Of a stretch of 64,000 nt of DNA, positions 1,721 through 7,653 are shown in pieces. The position numbers were made by a program, and so were the translations under genes. The DNA is from Nanobdellota archaeon (lineage in GTDB: Archaea; Nanobdellota; Nanobdellia; Pacearchaeales; GW2011-AR1). The stretch covers positions 62,001-126,000 of the forward strand of contig JAJZAH010000003.1 of assembly GCA_021799535.1 (NCBI GenBank), given 5' to 3'. Below the pieces are notes generated by a model that did not search any database, was not told where the DNA came from, and was given only the letters and a program-made list of their open reading frames with translations. Position 1 is the first letter of the stretch. Every line of letters begins with the position of its first letter.

Positions 1721-2855
1721 ATTTTATCCATCTGCTGACAAGGAAGTTAGAAGTATCTTAAAAAATGTGAAATCTCCATCGGAAGAAAAAGTTAAAGACA
1801 TTCTTGAGAAAAGCAAAACTGAAAGTTTGGATTTACCTGAAATCGCTGAACTGTTGGAAACTAGGGGCGATCAAAGTTTTGAGATGATGAGGGATTTTAC
1901 ACTTGAAAATTTCAGAGGTCCAGAAGGCAATGAACTGAGGAATATCTCTCCAATTTACCTCTCAAGTCATTGCATCGATAAATGTGGTTACTGTCAATTC
2001 TCAGCGAGCAGAACCGACACACAAAGAACAAGACTTTCATTAAACCAACTTGAAAGAGAGGTTTTATCTGTGATTGACGAGGGGAACAATGTGATAGAAT
2101 TCACTCTCGCAACAGATCCTGACTTTACCCCGGGAAAACTTGCAGAATATGTAAATAAAACCAAAAAGATCTTGGGCGACAGAAAAGGAAGTGGCGTTCT
2201 CCTTTGTTCAGATTACCTCACAGAAGAAGATTACAAAAATCTCAAAGAGGCGGGACTCTGGGGTATTATCCAATGGGACGAAACTCTTGACAGGTCAAAG
2301 TACGAAAAGTGGCACGGGCAGAGCCCCAGAAAAAAGAACTTCGAAGAAAGAATGGACAACCATGACCGCGCCGCCAAATCTGGGCTTGAATCGGCAACGG
2401 GAGTCTTGTTCGGACTTTCTGACTTCAGATACGACGTCTTGATGCAAATTGCAAAAGCAAGGCATCTGCATAATGAATATGGGAAAAGGCCATTTGTTTT
2501 CGGAACCCCAAGATTAAAACCGATAGGGGGAAAGGAAATGCACCCAATAGATGAAGTTGATGACAGAAAGTACGAAACCGCCCTCATGGTTTACAAAATC
2601 GCGGAGCCTGATGTCGCGAGATGGCTCCAGACAAGAGAAATGCCTGAGTTGAATTTCAGGAATATGCTCGACGGAGATGTTTACACTTACAGATGCGGGG
2701 AAGTCAAACCTGGAGGTTACCAAGTCAATAAATCGACAGTCAACTCACTAAAAGGCGGGCAGTTTGGAGTGAATGAGATGGAAAGAATAGATTTCGAAGA
2801 GAAACTGAAAAAGACAAATTTCTCAGTTAATTATTCCTGGATTGGAGGGGATTAA
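1710..2855 (+). CDS. ThiH/HydG-like radical SAM enzyme
   Basis: 381 residues from the ATG at 1710, inside the preceding gene's tail; the tracked start at 1632 would overlap that gene by 89 bp. The radical SAM cluster motif is CIDKCGYC (CX3CX2C), preceded by SPIYLSSH as in ThiH, HydG and the NosL-type tryptophan lyases. Later motifs [16 protein letters not shown] and [10 protein letters not shown] match the C-terminal half of the TIM barrel in that family. HydG's C-terminal second-cluster cysteines are absent, so this is not a HydG; ThiH (tyrosine lyase for thiazole) is possible, but no thiamine gene is nearby. Pairing with an EgtD-like methyltransferase is unusual. Its stop overlaps the convergent copA stop. 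Confidence 0.7.
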
Positions 2856-4813
2856 ATCCTCTTCCCCCTCAATAAATTTGCATTCGTGACAACAGTTATC
2901 GATGATAAAGCCATCGCAATCTCTGCAAATATTGGGTTTAAAACTCCCGCAACCGCAAGAGGGATCGCGATCGTATTGTAGATGAAGGCCCAGAATAAAT
3001 TCTGCTTTATTTTTGAAAAAGTAGCCTTCGAGAGTTCAATCGCCTTAGGAACCCCCATTAAAGATCCATTTGTTAAGATTATGTCACCCGCTTCTATAGC
3101 AATATCCGTCCCCGTACCCATGGCAATCCCAACATTCGCTTGTTTTAACGCTGGAGCATCATTAATCCCGTCACCTACAAAAGCAACAAGTCCATCCTTG
3201 CTTTCGGATTGGAGCTCGGAGACTTTTCTGGCTTTTTCCTCGGGCAGAACATTCGCAATTACTTTTTTTATACCGACGACTTTGGCTATCGCTTTTGCCG
3301 TTCTTTCATTGTCTCCCGTAATCATCACAGTACAATAATTTTTTTTATGCAGTTCATTTAAAGCCTCAGCGGAATCTTCCTTTACCGAATCGGAAAGCGC
3401 AAATACTCCATAAGCTTTTTTGTCCGTTTCACATGACAGGATTACCACCGTCTTTCCTTCATCTTCAAAGTGACTTATCTCCTTAGAAAATTTTTTAAGG
3501 TCTATCCCCGATTCAGTAATCAAACTTTTGTTTCCGATGAGGTATCTTTTTCCAGAAATGATGCCCTCCACCCCCTTACCTCGAAGGATTCTGAAATTAT
3601 TTACTGTCTTATAATTCTTCAATTTTGAATAATTTACAACTGTTTTAGATAAAGGATGCTCTGAAAGTTTTTCTAGACTTCCCGCAATTTCTAAAAATTC
3701 CTTCTTGGTCGTGTCACCGGAAATCTTGACATCGGTCACTTCAGGTTTTCCTTTTGTTATCGTACCCGTCTTGTCAAAAATTACAGTTCTGACTTCTTTC
3801 ATTGTTTGTATAGCTTCTCCTTTTCTTATTAAAATCCCTTTTTTTGCCCCCATACCTGATCCAACAGTAAGAGCAATCGGCGTCGCTAAGCCTAAAGCAC
3901 AGGGGCATGAGATGACAAGAACCGAGATAGCTGCCCCAAAAGCATAACTAAAACTCCCGAAAAAACTCCATGCTATGAAAGTTAAAACGGATATTCCCAG
4001 AACTAATGGGACAAATATCGCTGTGATTTTGTCTGCAAGTTTTTGTATCGGGACCTTGCTACTCTGCGTCTCTTCAACAAGTTCAATTATATGAGAAAGA
4101 AAAGTATCTGAACCCACCTTCAAGGCCTTGACATACAAAAATCCATCCTGATTTACTGTAGCTCCGATAGCGTTATCCCCTTTTCTTTTGTCAACGGGAA
4201 AGCTCTCGCCTGTAATCATGGACTCATCGATACTGCTTTCACCTTTTATTACAACCCCATCTGTCGGAATTTTCTCCCCGGGTTTGATTAGCATGATGTC
4301 TCCAACTCTCACCTTGGAAATAAGAATTTCAATTTCTTCCTTGCCTCTAAGTACCCTAGCATTCTTGGCACCCATCTCCAAAAGCTTCCTTATTTCCTGT
4401 CCGGCCTTCCCCCGGGCTTTTGATTCAATATATTTCCCTGTGACAAATATTGCCATAACCATCGCGGAAACTCCGGAATAATTTTGGATGCTAAGAAAGA
4501 AACTGAGTATACCGGTCAGATATGCAACAACTGTCCCAAGAGAAATGAGAGAGTCCATATTGAAATATAAGCTTAAAAGACCATGAAATCCGGATTTTAA
4601 TGTCTGAAGCCCTATTATGAATATGACAGGGAAAGATAAGACCAAAATTATCACAGACATCACACTTTCATCAAAAAGCATAAAGCCGAAAAGTTTCGTA
4701 ATATACATAAAAAAGATCACGGGAACCAAAATTATCCAGCTCCAAATAAGCTTTTTTTTCCACATCTTCGATTCCTCATCCTCTAATTTTCCGGTTTTAT
4801 TTTCTTTATCCAT
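2852..4813 (-). CDS. copA: Copper-translocating P-type ATPase (CopA-like, without N-terminal HMA)
   Basis: 653 residues. It shows the P1B-ATPase order: transmembrane helices, the A-domain TGES loop (MITGES), the metal motif [10 protein letters not shown] in TM6, the phosphorylation site DKTGTIT, the SEHPLSK motif of the nucleotide domain and the hinge [12 protein letters not shown]7 carries YN and TM8 MALSS, consistent with Cu(I) specificity. No cytosolic heavy-metal-associated domain is fused at the N-terminus; it is encoded separately just upstream. It exports copper across the cytoplasmic membrane. It is probably in one operon with the HMA protein, the cupredoxin and the Met-rich membrane protein. 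Confidence 0.92.
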
Positions 4814-4828
4814 GTTCTAATTTGGAAA

Positions 4829-5038
4829 TTATTCTATCGAAATAGCTTTATAACCTGCTTTGGACACAGCCTTTTTCAGATCTTCGTCACTTGTTTTGTC
4901 ATTGCATTCTACAATCGCCTTTTTAGTCATTATACTTACATTTGCGAAAGAAACACCAGAAACTTTTTTTAGGCTTCTTTCAATATTTGTAGCGCAGGAT
5001 GCACAATGCATGCCTTCAACCAATATCTTTTTTTTCAT
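4829..5038 (-). CDS. copZ: Stand-alone HMA domain, CopZ-like copper chaperone
   Basis: 69 residues, the size of one ferredoxin-like HMA domain. The copper motif is GMHCASC (MxCxxC) near the N-terminus. It sits 15 bp upstream of copA, which lacks its own N-terminal HMA, so it may deliver Cu(I) to the pump as a free chaperone or act as the pump's detached regulatory domain. Confidence 0.9.
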   Translation of the reverse strand: MKKKILVEGMHCASCATNIERSLKKVSGVSFANVSIMTKKAIVECNDKTSDEDLKKAVSKAGYKAISIE

Positions 5039-5094: not shown

Positions 5095-5475
5095 TTACTC
5101 TACGATCAAAGTCCCAGTTCCCATTCCCATTATGCACGCAAAACGGAAGGTTCCTTTTTTGGTCGGCGTGAACTCAATGTAATCATTTGGTGTTGGAAGT
5201 GTTCTTACAATCCCAAAATCCTTTATCGTAAACGTCCTGTAACAACCTGAAACCGTACTGTCCAGATAAATCCTGACAGGCTGTCCGACTTTCACCGTGA
5301 TTGTGTTTGGATAATAATTCCCGTTCTTTATCCCTATCGTGACTTTCTGCACATTGGTTGAAGCTGAATTTCCATTTGTGGAATTACCGCCTGATGTGCT
5401 CGAGTTTCCAATGAAAAACCATCCTAACCCGACTACCAAGATTATCAGCAAAAAAGTCACAGTTTTGTCTTTCAT
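5095..5475 (-). CDS. Membrane-anchored cupredoxin-like protein
   Basis: 126 residues: an N-terminal signal anchor (VTFLLIILVVGLGWFFIG), a Ser/Asn/Gly-rich linker, then a roughly 85-residue beta-rich domain. Potential metal ligands are Cys in SGCYRTF and the C-terminal CIMGMG with Met, the arrangement of the Cupredoxin_1 family found with copper exporters. It faces outside and could bind or pass on copper. Its ATG overlaps the stop of the membrane protein gene upstream (ATGA), so the two are translationally coupled. Confidence 0.8.
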   Translation of the reverse strand: MKDKTVTFLLIILVVGLGWFFIGNSSTSGGNSTNGNSASTNVQKVTIGIKNGNYYPNTITVKVGQPVRIYLDSTVSGCYRTFTIKDFGIVRTLPTPNDYIEFTPTKKGTFRFACIMGMGTGTLIVE

Positions 5476-6155
5476 GAAAATAAAACGCTCCTTGGCCCAA
5501 ACACGATGAGCCAGGTTGTTATCGCAGTAAGTATTATGCTGAATAAAATCGTAAGCATGTGATCTTCAACCAATTCCCTTTCATTTTCCTTCATCTCTTT
5601 GTAAATCATATAATCTAAGGAAAAGATTATCCATGATGAAATCAAGAAAATGGCGACAGAAGCTATTTTCAGATTATCGTTCAAAAGCATCACAGAAGTC
5701 ATAGCTCCCATAAGCCCCCCCATGAACCCTGCCATCAGTCCTTCCATAATCCCCATGATTCCGCAGCAGTTTCCGTTCCAAACTCCTATGAATATTCCAA
5801 ATGCCATTCCAAAAAACATCCCGTAAGAAAGCCCATTCGTCGCACCGATAAAATATCCAGGGAGGAACCCTGCAATCATCCCTGACGTCATTCCAATCAT
5901 CATTCCGGGCATGCATGAAAATTGCCTGTAAGCCCGAACCTGCCGCAGCGATGGCAAAATCATGCTGTAACTTAATATTGCAAAGAAGATAAAAAAACCG
6001 TATTTGGGCAGAAAACTATCAACATACCTTAATTTCAAAAAGTATAAAATAAAAAGAAGACCAAATGAAAAAATAAGCGAGTAAAGAATAGTCTTTAGAA
6101 GTTCTCCCTCCACTCTTTCGCCATAAAGTTCTTTCTTAAATTCTTTCAATGTCAT
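5472..6155 (-). CDS. Met/Gly-rich polytopic membrane protein of the copper operon
   Basis: 227 residues with about six hydrophobic segments. The middle is unusual: SCMPGMMIGMTSGM followed by GMFFGMAFGIFIG and NGNCCGIMGIMEG, a series of Met, Cys and GxxxG repeats inside the membrane. Similar proteins occur beside cupredoxin genes in bacteria and archaea; function unproven. It is the first gene of the operon, has a weak TATA (GTTAAATAG) upstream, and is divergent from the regulator gene. Copper uptake or transfer to the cupredoxin is inference from context and methionine content. Confidence 0.7.
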   Translation of the reverse strand: MTLKEFKKELYGERVEGELLKTILYSLIFSFGLLFILYFLKLRYVDSFLPKYGFFIFFAILSYSMILPSLRQVRAYRQFSCMPGMMIGMTSGMIAGFLPGYFIGATNGLSYGMFFGMAFGIFIGVWNGNCCGIMGIMEGLMAGFMGGLMGAMTSVMLLNDNLKIASVAIFLISSWIIFSLDYMIYKEMKENERELVEDHMLTILFSIILTAITTWLIVFGPRSVLFS

Positions 6156-6193
6156 AGCAAGCTTAGAAAAACATTCTATTTAACCACTTCGGG

Positions 6194-6205
6194 GAAACTA
6201 GTTTC
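6194..6205. promoter_or_regulatory. Palindrome between the divergent copper operon and regulator promoters
   Basis: GAAACTAGTTTC is a perfect 12-bp palindrome. It lies between the minus-strand TATA (about 6178-6186) and the plus-strand TATA (AGATATAAAAAC, about 6232-6243), so it is well placed as an operator for both directions. Confidence 0.45.
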
Positions 6206-6264
6206 ATATGCAAAAAAATTCAGATAACCTTAAGATATAAAAACTCATATTCCATTTTCTTATC

Positions 6265-6744
6265 ATGGAAAATAAAAAAGCCGGATGGCTGATAGTGGGA
6301 ATTGCCGTAGCTATGGGGGTGATAGTTTGGATTTTTAATTCCCTTACGCAAAAAGTAATCAATGAAAACTGCATCATGGAAACAAACTGCATAATGCATG
6401 AGACCTCTTCCATACAGCTTTGGCTCGGACTTTCAATAATTGCAATAATTTTAGCCATAGGGTTTTATATAATGTTCTCAAAACCCGACGAGAAAGTTGT
6501 GGTAAAAAAAGTGAAGGAAAAACAGAAGAAAAAGATGCTTGATCTTTCAGGTCTTGAGAGAGAGGAGAAAGAAGCAATAAAATTAATTGAATCTGAAGGA
6601 AAAGCTATGTTTCAGAAAGAATTAATGGAAAAACTAGGGGTTGGAAAAGTCAAAATGACCCGCCTTTTAGACAAACTCGAAGCAAAACAGTTCATAATAA
6701 GAAAAAGAAGAGGAATGAATAATATTGTGGTTTTGAAGGATTAG
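6265..6744 (+). CDS. Membrane-embedded winged-helix regulator, putative copper sensor
   Basis: 159 residues. TM1 is about residues 7-27 and TM2 about 51-71; the short extracytoplasmic loop between them reads ENCIMETNCIMHE and so has two Cys, two Met and one His. A lysine-rich stretch (72-90) follows TM2, and residues 92-159 form a winged helix with a MARR/HTH-like core (LIESEGKAMFQKELMEKLGV) and a basic wing (RKRRG). This two-TM plus wHTH layout is a known archaeal type. Divergence from the copper operon and the soft-metal ligands suggest it senses copper outside and acts on DNA inside without a kinase. Leaderless start: TATA at about -27. Confidence 0.7.
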   Translation: MENKKAGWLIVGIAVAMGVIVWIFNSLTQKVINENCIMETNCIMHETSSIQLWLGLSIIAIILAIGFYIMFSKPDEKVVVKKVKEKQKKKMLDLSGLEREEKEAIKLIESEGKAMFQKELMEKLGVGKVKMTRLLDKLEAKQFIIRKRRGMNNIVVLKD

Positions 6745-6793: not shown

Positions 6794-6880
6794 ATGAAAT
6801 ATATTTTCAAATGTCCATTAACTTTAAATATGAAAAATATGTTAAAAATTAATAGAATTGAAAAGGAGGAAAAAAAATGA
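6794..6880 (+). CDS. Possible 28-codon leader ORF ahead of dsbA
   Basis: An ATG at 6794 lies 26 nt after the centre of TTTATAAT (6765-6772), the leaderless spacing used elsewhere here. The frame (MKYIFKCPLTLN... to EEKK) ends in a TGA that overlaps the dsbA ATG as ATGA, and the dsbA Shine-Dalgarno AAGGAGG lies inside it. It could be a translated leader that couples translation. A second TATA (TTTAAATA, about 6824) could instead give a short untranslated leader, so translation is unproven. Confidence 0.35.
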   Translation: MKYIFKCPLTLNMKNMLKINRIEKEEKK

Positions 6881-7653
6881 GTGAGACAATTCAAATAAAA
6901 AAAGACACCTTCTATAAAGGTGCCATAGTTGTCCTTGCAGTTCTTCTAATCATTTCAATCTTCACAGGAGGTTTTGGTTTCGGGGGGACAGGAGCAGCGA
7001 CTCGGAATAATAACGCTGCTGCCGCAGGAGCAGGAACCACTGCAGCCGCAACAACTTCTGCAGGAGATGTCACAGCAATAACTGGGAACCCTACATTGTT
7101 CCCTCAGCTCGGACCATCAAACGCGAAAGCGACAGTGATCGAATTAGCTGATTTCCAGTGTCCATACTGTGCCTTAGCCTCAGGTTTGCCAAACTGGACA
7201 AGCCAATACACTAGTCAGTACGGAAGCCTTATAGGATCGGCAGGAAATGCCGAGAAAGCCGCACAAAACGGTCAGATAAGATTCATCTTCGCGCCATTGA
7301 GTTTCCTTGGACAAGAATCGGTGAATGCCGCACAAGCAGCATTCTGCGCTGAGAATCAGGACAAATTCTGGCAGATGCATGACGCTATTTATCAGGCAAG
7401 CACAGGACCAACTGAAGATGATGGAAAATACAGCATCTCTAATTTAGAGAAGATTGCTGTAGGAATCTCCGGACTTGACACAGCTAAGTTCAACAGTTGC
7501 CTTGAAAGCAATGCAACACTCTCAGAAGTACAGCAGGTTATGAGCACTGTCCAGAATGCGGGATTCCAGATTTCGACACCTCAGTTCTGGGTGAACGGAC
7601 AACAGGTCCAGCCTTCATGGTCTTCCATACAGGCTGCAATCAACGCCGCGTAA
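6877..7653 (+). CDS. DsbA-like thiol oxidoreductase (thioredoxin_4 family), copy 1
   Basis: 258 residues. An N-terminal membrane anchor (IVVLAVLLIISIFTGG) and an Ala/Thr/Gly-rich linker are followed by a DsbA-type fold with ADFQCPYC as the redox CXXC, helical insertion residues (DKFWQMHDAIY) and a C-terminal cis-Pro region STPQFWVNG. It probably forms or isomerises disulfides in exported proteins. A strong Shine-Dalgarno (AAGGAGG) eight bases before the ATG shows a leadered message, unlike most genes here. Its closest relative in the window is the next gene. Confidence 0.88.
   Translation: MSETIQIKKDTFYKGAIVVLAVLLIISIFTGGFGFGGTGAATRNNNAAAAGAGTTAAATTSAGDVTAITGNPTLFPQLGPSNAKATVIELADFQCPYCALASGLPNWTSQYTSQYGSLIGSAGNAEKAAQNGQIRFIFAPLSFLGQESVNAAQAAFCAENQDKFWQMHDAIYQASTGPTEDDGKYSISNLEKIAVGISGLDTAKFNSCLESNATLSEVQQVMSTVQNAGFQISTPQFWVNGQQVQPSWSSIQAAINAA

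Follow-up and report, generated by a model that had tools for sequence, protein, structure and literature searches.

The window, that is, the whole stretch of 64,000 nucleotides that was analysed, was found to contain the gene of a small regulator, here called W, which lies divergent from a copper operon encoding P227, a cupredoxin, an HMA chaperone and a CopA-type ATPase. The features of the locus were as follows.

2852..4813, minus strand: copper-type P1B ATPase (CopA-like); TIGR01511, E 1.4e-170, scoring 568.7 bits where the cut-off is 397
4829..5038, minus strand: HMA copper chaperone (CopZ-like); PF00403, E 5.4e-16, the CopZ-type model giving the best score, yet under its cut-off
5095..5475, minus strand: cupredoxin-like protein; PF13473, E 7.5e-14
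5472..6155, minus strand: P227, opening gene of the operon, encoding a Met-rich membrane protein of unknown family; its start codon lies 39 nt away from the edge of the operator
6177..6183, minus strand: TTAAATA, predicted to be the TATA box of the copper operon and separated from the operator by 10 bp; from the column conservation of 83 promoters
about 6184-6189: BRE-like stretch between the operator and the TATA box
6194..6205, no strand: predicted operator, the perfect palindrome GAAACTAGTTTC; from its recurrence near W homologues and the genome distribution of a 14-mer
6265..6744, plus strand: regulator W, 159 aa; TM hairpin, flexible linker and DUF7343/MarR-type winged helix
6370..6399, plus strand: ligand tip CIMETNCIMH, residues 36-45, with conserved ligands, between two helices predicted by AlphaFold2
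6877..7653, plus strand: DsbA-like thioredoxin-fold protein downstream of W; PF13462/PF01323
7773..8474, plus strand: second DsbA-like protein; PF13462/PF01323

The first-pass annotation had placed a membrane-embedded winged-helix protein opposite a copper exporter operon, with a palindrome between the promoters, and each of these points was borne out. W contained two membrane segments by hydropathy (residues about 4-29 and 47-74), followed by the presence of a DNA-binding domain that matched PF24034 DUF7343 (30 bits, cut-off 27.6, E 4.6e-7) and also passed the cut-off of PF01047 MarR (24.9 bits, cut-off 24.6). Both the N-terminal MENKK and the residues following the second membrane segment (KVVVKKVKEKQKKK) were basic, so the loop was predicted to lie outside and the winged helix inside the cell. 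The AlphaFold2 model was built from 58 sequences (mean pLDDT 76, pTM 0.37) and contained helices at 3-35 and 43-71 and a winged helix at 99-157. The linker at 78-91 was modelled with low confidence, and the path by which a membrane signal would reach the winged helix is weakly modelled. The PDB profile and fold searches returned MarR-type and other winged-helix proteins, and no kinase or receiver domain was matched in Pfam and NCBIfam. The presence of a transmembrane anchor and a DNA-binding domain in one polypeptide, as seen by hydropathy and AlphaFold2, fits a membrane-bound one-component regulator, and the conserved operator suggests that W would bind DNA directly.

Homologues of W at E<=0.01 were found in 128 of the 180 genomes of a same-family survey, and, by profile search across the phylum, in 238 of 371 genomes. 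The named relatives belonged to MAGs of Candidatus Pacearchaeota, Woesearchaeota and Nanoarchaeota, the closest being 93% identical. Of 141 nonredundant loci from these three groups, 84 carried the exact palindrome GAAACTAGTTTC no further than 1 kb from W; the loci are related by descent and so do not count as independent events. The next palindromic 12-mer reached 6 loci only. The 84 sites fell in 275 kb near W, as against 8 sites in 1.02 Mb lying more than 2 kb away. A one-mismatch operator was found in 17 of the 52 remaining loci, where shuffled palindromes give an expected mean of 0.18, and about a quarter of the loci contained neither an exact nor a one-mismatch operator near W. The 14-mer TGAAACTAGTTTCA occurred in 50 of the 180 genomes, namely in 49 of the 96 with a strong W homologue and in 1 of the 84 without (Fisher 7e-16), and its reversed control had zero occurrences in the genome survey. 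Within the window alone, the palindrome pattern with 2 mismatches allowed was no more frequent than expected, and in its own genome of 0.75 Mb the 12-mer was found exactly just once. A chance palindrome was rejected on the recurrence near W, the genome distribution and the excess of one-mismatch sites. The operator sequence was absent from the papers in the literature searched.

The operator was found to follow its target genes. Three operator sites that were several kb distant from W, or located on a different contig, nevertheless preceded target genes, which were Dsb and an HMA-DsbD-cupredoxin fusion (L118), c3 (L132) and c3-DUF411 (L124). These positions support the reading of GAAACTAGTTTC as a conserved operator that would follow copper targets even away from the W gene. 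The commonest operator target, c3, was found to be a protein of about 225 aa with the motifs CEYCCGA and CGCAHSYA (for example L048:1409-2044, and at further loci), and the members tested gave no significant Pfam match. The small protein c25 (L035, L054, L066, L076 and other loci) looked secreted, contained many Cys and was among the direct targets of the operator in several loci; it is possibly a metallothionein-like trap.

In the 83 operator-target promoters, read towards the target, the site was followed by a BRE-like stretch and then by the TATA box, at a fixed spacing, with T at +23 in 98% and A at +24 in 92%. The operator edge was found 39-40 nt from the start codon in 11 of 13 P227 genes, 22 of 29 c3 genes, 7 of 8 DsbD-cupredoxin genes, 3 of 3 cupredoxin genes and 7 of 11 c24 genes. 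The distance on the W side was variable, being 39-40 nt in only 2 of 34. The fixed spacing before unrelated genes makes one inherited promoter hard to accept as the explanation. If the transcripts start near the ATG, the operator covers about -40 to -51. In the promoters of the distant class members L264, L268, L270 and L256, a second half-site, GTTTC, was observed after the TATA box, about 20 nt past the operator.

The first-pass annotation gave no sign of regulation, which has to be read from this geometry. MarR-fold proteins are mostly repressors, and the PDB profile and fold searches ranked MarR proteins among the best matches of W. The short distance between operator and BRE would also permit steric blocking, so that W might sit next to the BRE and block TFB until copper releases it. 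We consider such a copper-responsive repressor unlikely, as the operator lies outside the core promoter, where archaeal activators bind (PMC7830388, PMC6737238). In Pyrococcus furiosus, the semi-palindrome bound by CopR adjoins the BRE on its upstream side, and CopR activates copA and represses copR (PMC7830388), and the sites of TK0271 lie upstream of BRE/TATA (PMC6737238). The fixed TATA spacing across unrelated targets, with a variable spacing on the W side, fits a contact with TFB/TBP better than blocking. Activation is thus favoured by position only, and by analogy with these regulators W most likely activates rather than represses.

The loop of W, ENCIMETNCIMHE, contained C36, M38, C42, M44 and H45, that is, the five soft ligands within 10 residues on which the first-pass annotation had rested its copper sensor; their position outside the membrane is the predicted one. 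Among 58 aligned homologues C42 was invariant, and C36 and M44 were conserved in at least 90%. The common forms of the loop were C-x-H-G-P-x-C-x-M-Y and a longer C...HG...CPM, and divergent members contained CPxHK in place of CxM. In the main family, at least two Cys were found in 138 of 139 loops, Met or His no more than 3 residues from the second Cys in 125 of 139, and Met or His between the two Cys in 123 of 139. These ligands were near-universal across the main family, beyond the copper loci too. The idea that Met/His ligands would co-occur only with copper operons therefore proved too strict, as no recognised copper gene lay within 6 kb of W in 43 of 139 loci. The related expectation, that copper-linked homologues keep the loop ligands, had exceptions: L090 carried no Met/His between its cysteines or immediately past them, and L199 had lost the first Cys. 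The case of L090 marks the Cys pair as the more constant part of the tip.

This constancy would fit a thiol/disulfide redox sensor, in which the outside Cys pair opens and closes a disulfide and the response of the copper genes stems from the oxidation of thiols by copper. In the window W has DsbA-like genes beside it, such genes are directly targeted by the operator in L250, L282, L283 and L118, and a one-mismatch site was found 39 nt before the genome's only VKOR gene. The closest relative, however, yielded no such site before VKOR, the Met/His beside the Cys pair was conserved in 125 of 139 loops, and copper proteins dominated the recognised operator targets. The paralogue group that often adjoins DsbA-like genes is, moreover, the one without Met. 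This group, w2 (n=12), kept the Cys pair in all members, with Met in 0 of 12 and His in 2 of 12, and often adjoined DsbA-like genes. On this balance a redox sensor is given rather poor prospects, slightly poorer than those of the repressor, and copper sensing by W is preferred; the w2 proteins themselves may be thiol sensors. The w2 examples (L063:12712-13176, L102:12769-13227, L085:14725-15225 and others) were observed to have the same TM-TM-winged-helix layout as W, with a loop resembling LGCFNNxxCFAIERG, which contains two Cys and no Met.

The VKOR site lies outside the window at G000:C6:101442-101453 (L114:1501-1512), exactly 39 nt before the gene and followed by a TATA-like stretch at the usual spacing, and it was kept as tentative. 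The own-genome one-mismatch sites comprised this site and two others inside coding sequence. In L298, a congener, a variant of the operator with the usual TATA spacing was found ahead of the DsbA-like gene of the 6877..7653 type.

The gene neighbourhoods of W were grouped by clustering all neighbouring ORFs, which recovered the DUF411 and c3 sets that a search with the window homologues alone missed. The first recurrent setting was an island of CopA, HMA, cupredoxin and P227, and the second contained c3-DUF411-c14-c19-c16-c20. We take DUF411 to be the family of CopG, a copper protein of bacteria, and no paper joining both terms was found in the literature searched. The third setting was an ArsR-IscS-DUF1858-IscU-W operon, often followed by the presence of an HMA-DsbD-cupredoxin fusion, CopA, the membrane protein c24 or the small Cys-rich c25. 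In L035, L036, L037, L044, L054 and others, W was often observed after ArsR-IscS-DUF1858-IscU on the same strand, an arrangement that links Fe-S assembly genes with the copper response. A reading of W as an Fe-S regulator was set aside because the operator in these loci is usually found on the downstream side of W, in front of the next gene, which is copper-related or Cys-rich.

Across the 180 genomes, both W and CopA were found in 74, W only in 22, CopA only in 19 and neither in 65 (odds ratio 11.5, Fisher p 2e-13). CopA lay within 10 kb of W on 40 of the 76 CopA-bearing contigs of W genomes, and a recognised copper gene lay within 6 kb of W in 96 of 139 loci. In most of the 43 loci without such a gene, the operator or a target of unknown function (c3, c24, c25) was still present. 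The co-occurrence and co-localisation with copper genes, the operator tracking copper targets and the conserved ligands lend comparative support to the first-pass proposal of a kinase-free copper sensor acting directly on DNA. The gene linkage and the operator targets likewise point to a W that would bind Cu(I) and control copper homeostasis genes. Since Cys/Met/His tips can bind several soft metals, and some loci hold ArsR-type regulators and an ArsM-like methyltransferase, W might instead sense Ag, Hg or As with the copper genes as side targets, which is very improbable given that the recurrent recognised targets and neighbours were HMA, cupredoxin, P1B-type ATPase and DUF411 proteins and that none of the operator targets was recognised as a gene for arsenic or mercury efflux.

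We therefore regard W, with good though not full confidence, as a membrane-anchored one-component metal regulator of DPANN archaea, most likely for Cu(I), acting through GAAACTAGTTTC. The presence of W together with a near-invariant 12-base site at a fixed distance before copper-handling genes very probably represents a one-protein copper switch. In the proposed mechanism, the tip of the hairpin outside the cell (Cys36, Cys42, Met44/His45 and usually a further His or Met) would bind metal, and a flexible linker would connect the hairpin to the cytoplasmic MarR-like winged helix. A dimer of W would sit on GAAACTAGTTTC, immediately upstream of the BRE/TATA of the copper-handling operons. A soft metal at the tip, most likely Cu(I), would alter the pairing of the hairpins and hence of the winged helices on the palindrome, a dimerisation that the flexible linker makes likelier as the switch than a rigid push. 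With metal present, W would most likely aid the binding of TFB/TBP, so that the operon is activated, and W may also control its own divergent promoter. It is somewhat less assured, yet still favoured, that W defines a class-wide copper regulon of Pacearchaeota/Woesearchaeota/Nanoarchaeota through the metal-binding tip and a 12-bp operator in activator position, with the paralogues lacking Met redirected to the disulfide (DsbA) branch.

The CusRS/CopRS two-component systems sense copper on the outer side of the cytoplasmic membrane and switch on its export, for which they need a kinase and a response regulator, whereas W is a single polypeptide. The DNA-binding domain of W belongs to DUF7343 (PF24034), being above the Pfam cut-off, and this domain was present too in M. 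jannaschii, H. volcanii, S. acidocaldarius and M. acetivorans. The Pfam entry is one of unknown function, and its definition contains neither the metal-ligand hairpin nor the operator of W. No paper naming DUF7343 was found in the literature searched, and COG2512 gave no relevant match there. The likeness of W to the copper regulators CopR and CopT, in having a palindromic site upstream of the BRE, is a likeness of working and not of membership. The CopR semi-palindrome of P. furiosus stands immediately before the BRE of the copper-induced genes, copA among them, and copA and copR are divergent (PMC7830388), as are the copper operon and W. CopR belongs to the Lrp/AsnC family, its sensor parts are TRASH and a His stretch, and no membrane part is described for it (PMC7830388), whereas W is membrane-anchored and MarR-like, without TRASH and with a different operator sequence; no TRASH or Lrp/AsnC match to W was found at E<=0.1 in Pfam and NCBIfam. 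ArnR/ArnR1 of Sulfolobus are archaeal membrane-bound one-component activators which, like W, have two TM segments and an HTH (PMC6396743). They contain an N-terminal HTH, a putative HAMP, a separate sensor domain and a C-terminal TM pair, and act in the starvation response (PMC6396743). W has the reversed order, with an N-terminal TM hairpin, a short ligand tip and a C-terminal winged helix, and the profile search gave no match to HAMP. Membrane-bound one-component regulators such as ArnR and BRE-adjacent copper regulators such as CopR are each known; their combination in a W-type protein was, as far as we searched, undescribed in the literature.

To our knowledge, few regulons have been assigned in the DPANN archaea, which are mostly uncultured. 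Here the sensor, operator, promoter geometry and target list agree across many genomes, which makes the regulon predictable from sequence. W would show, in very short form, how a single small protein can couple sensing at the membrane to DNA; P227, c3, c24 and c25 are flagged as likely copper-handling factors. At 803-2855 of the window, beside the copper operon, a methyltransferase-like ORF was found to overlap a radical-SAM-like ORF, both named by eye.
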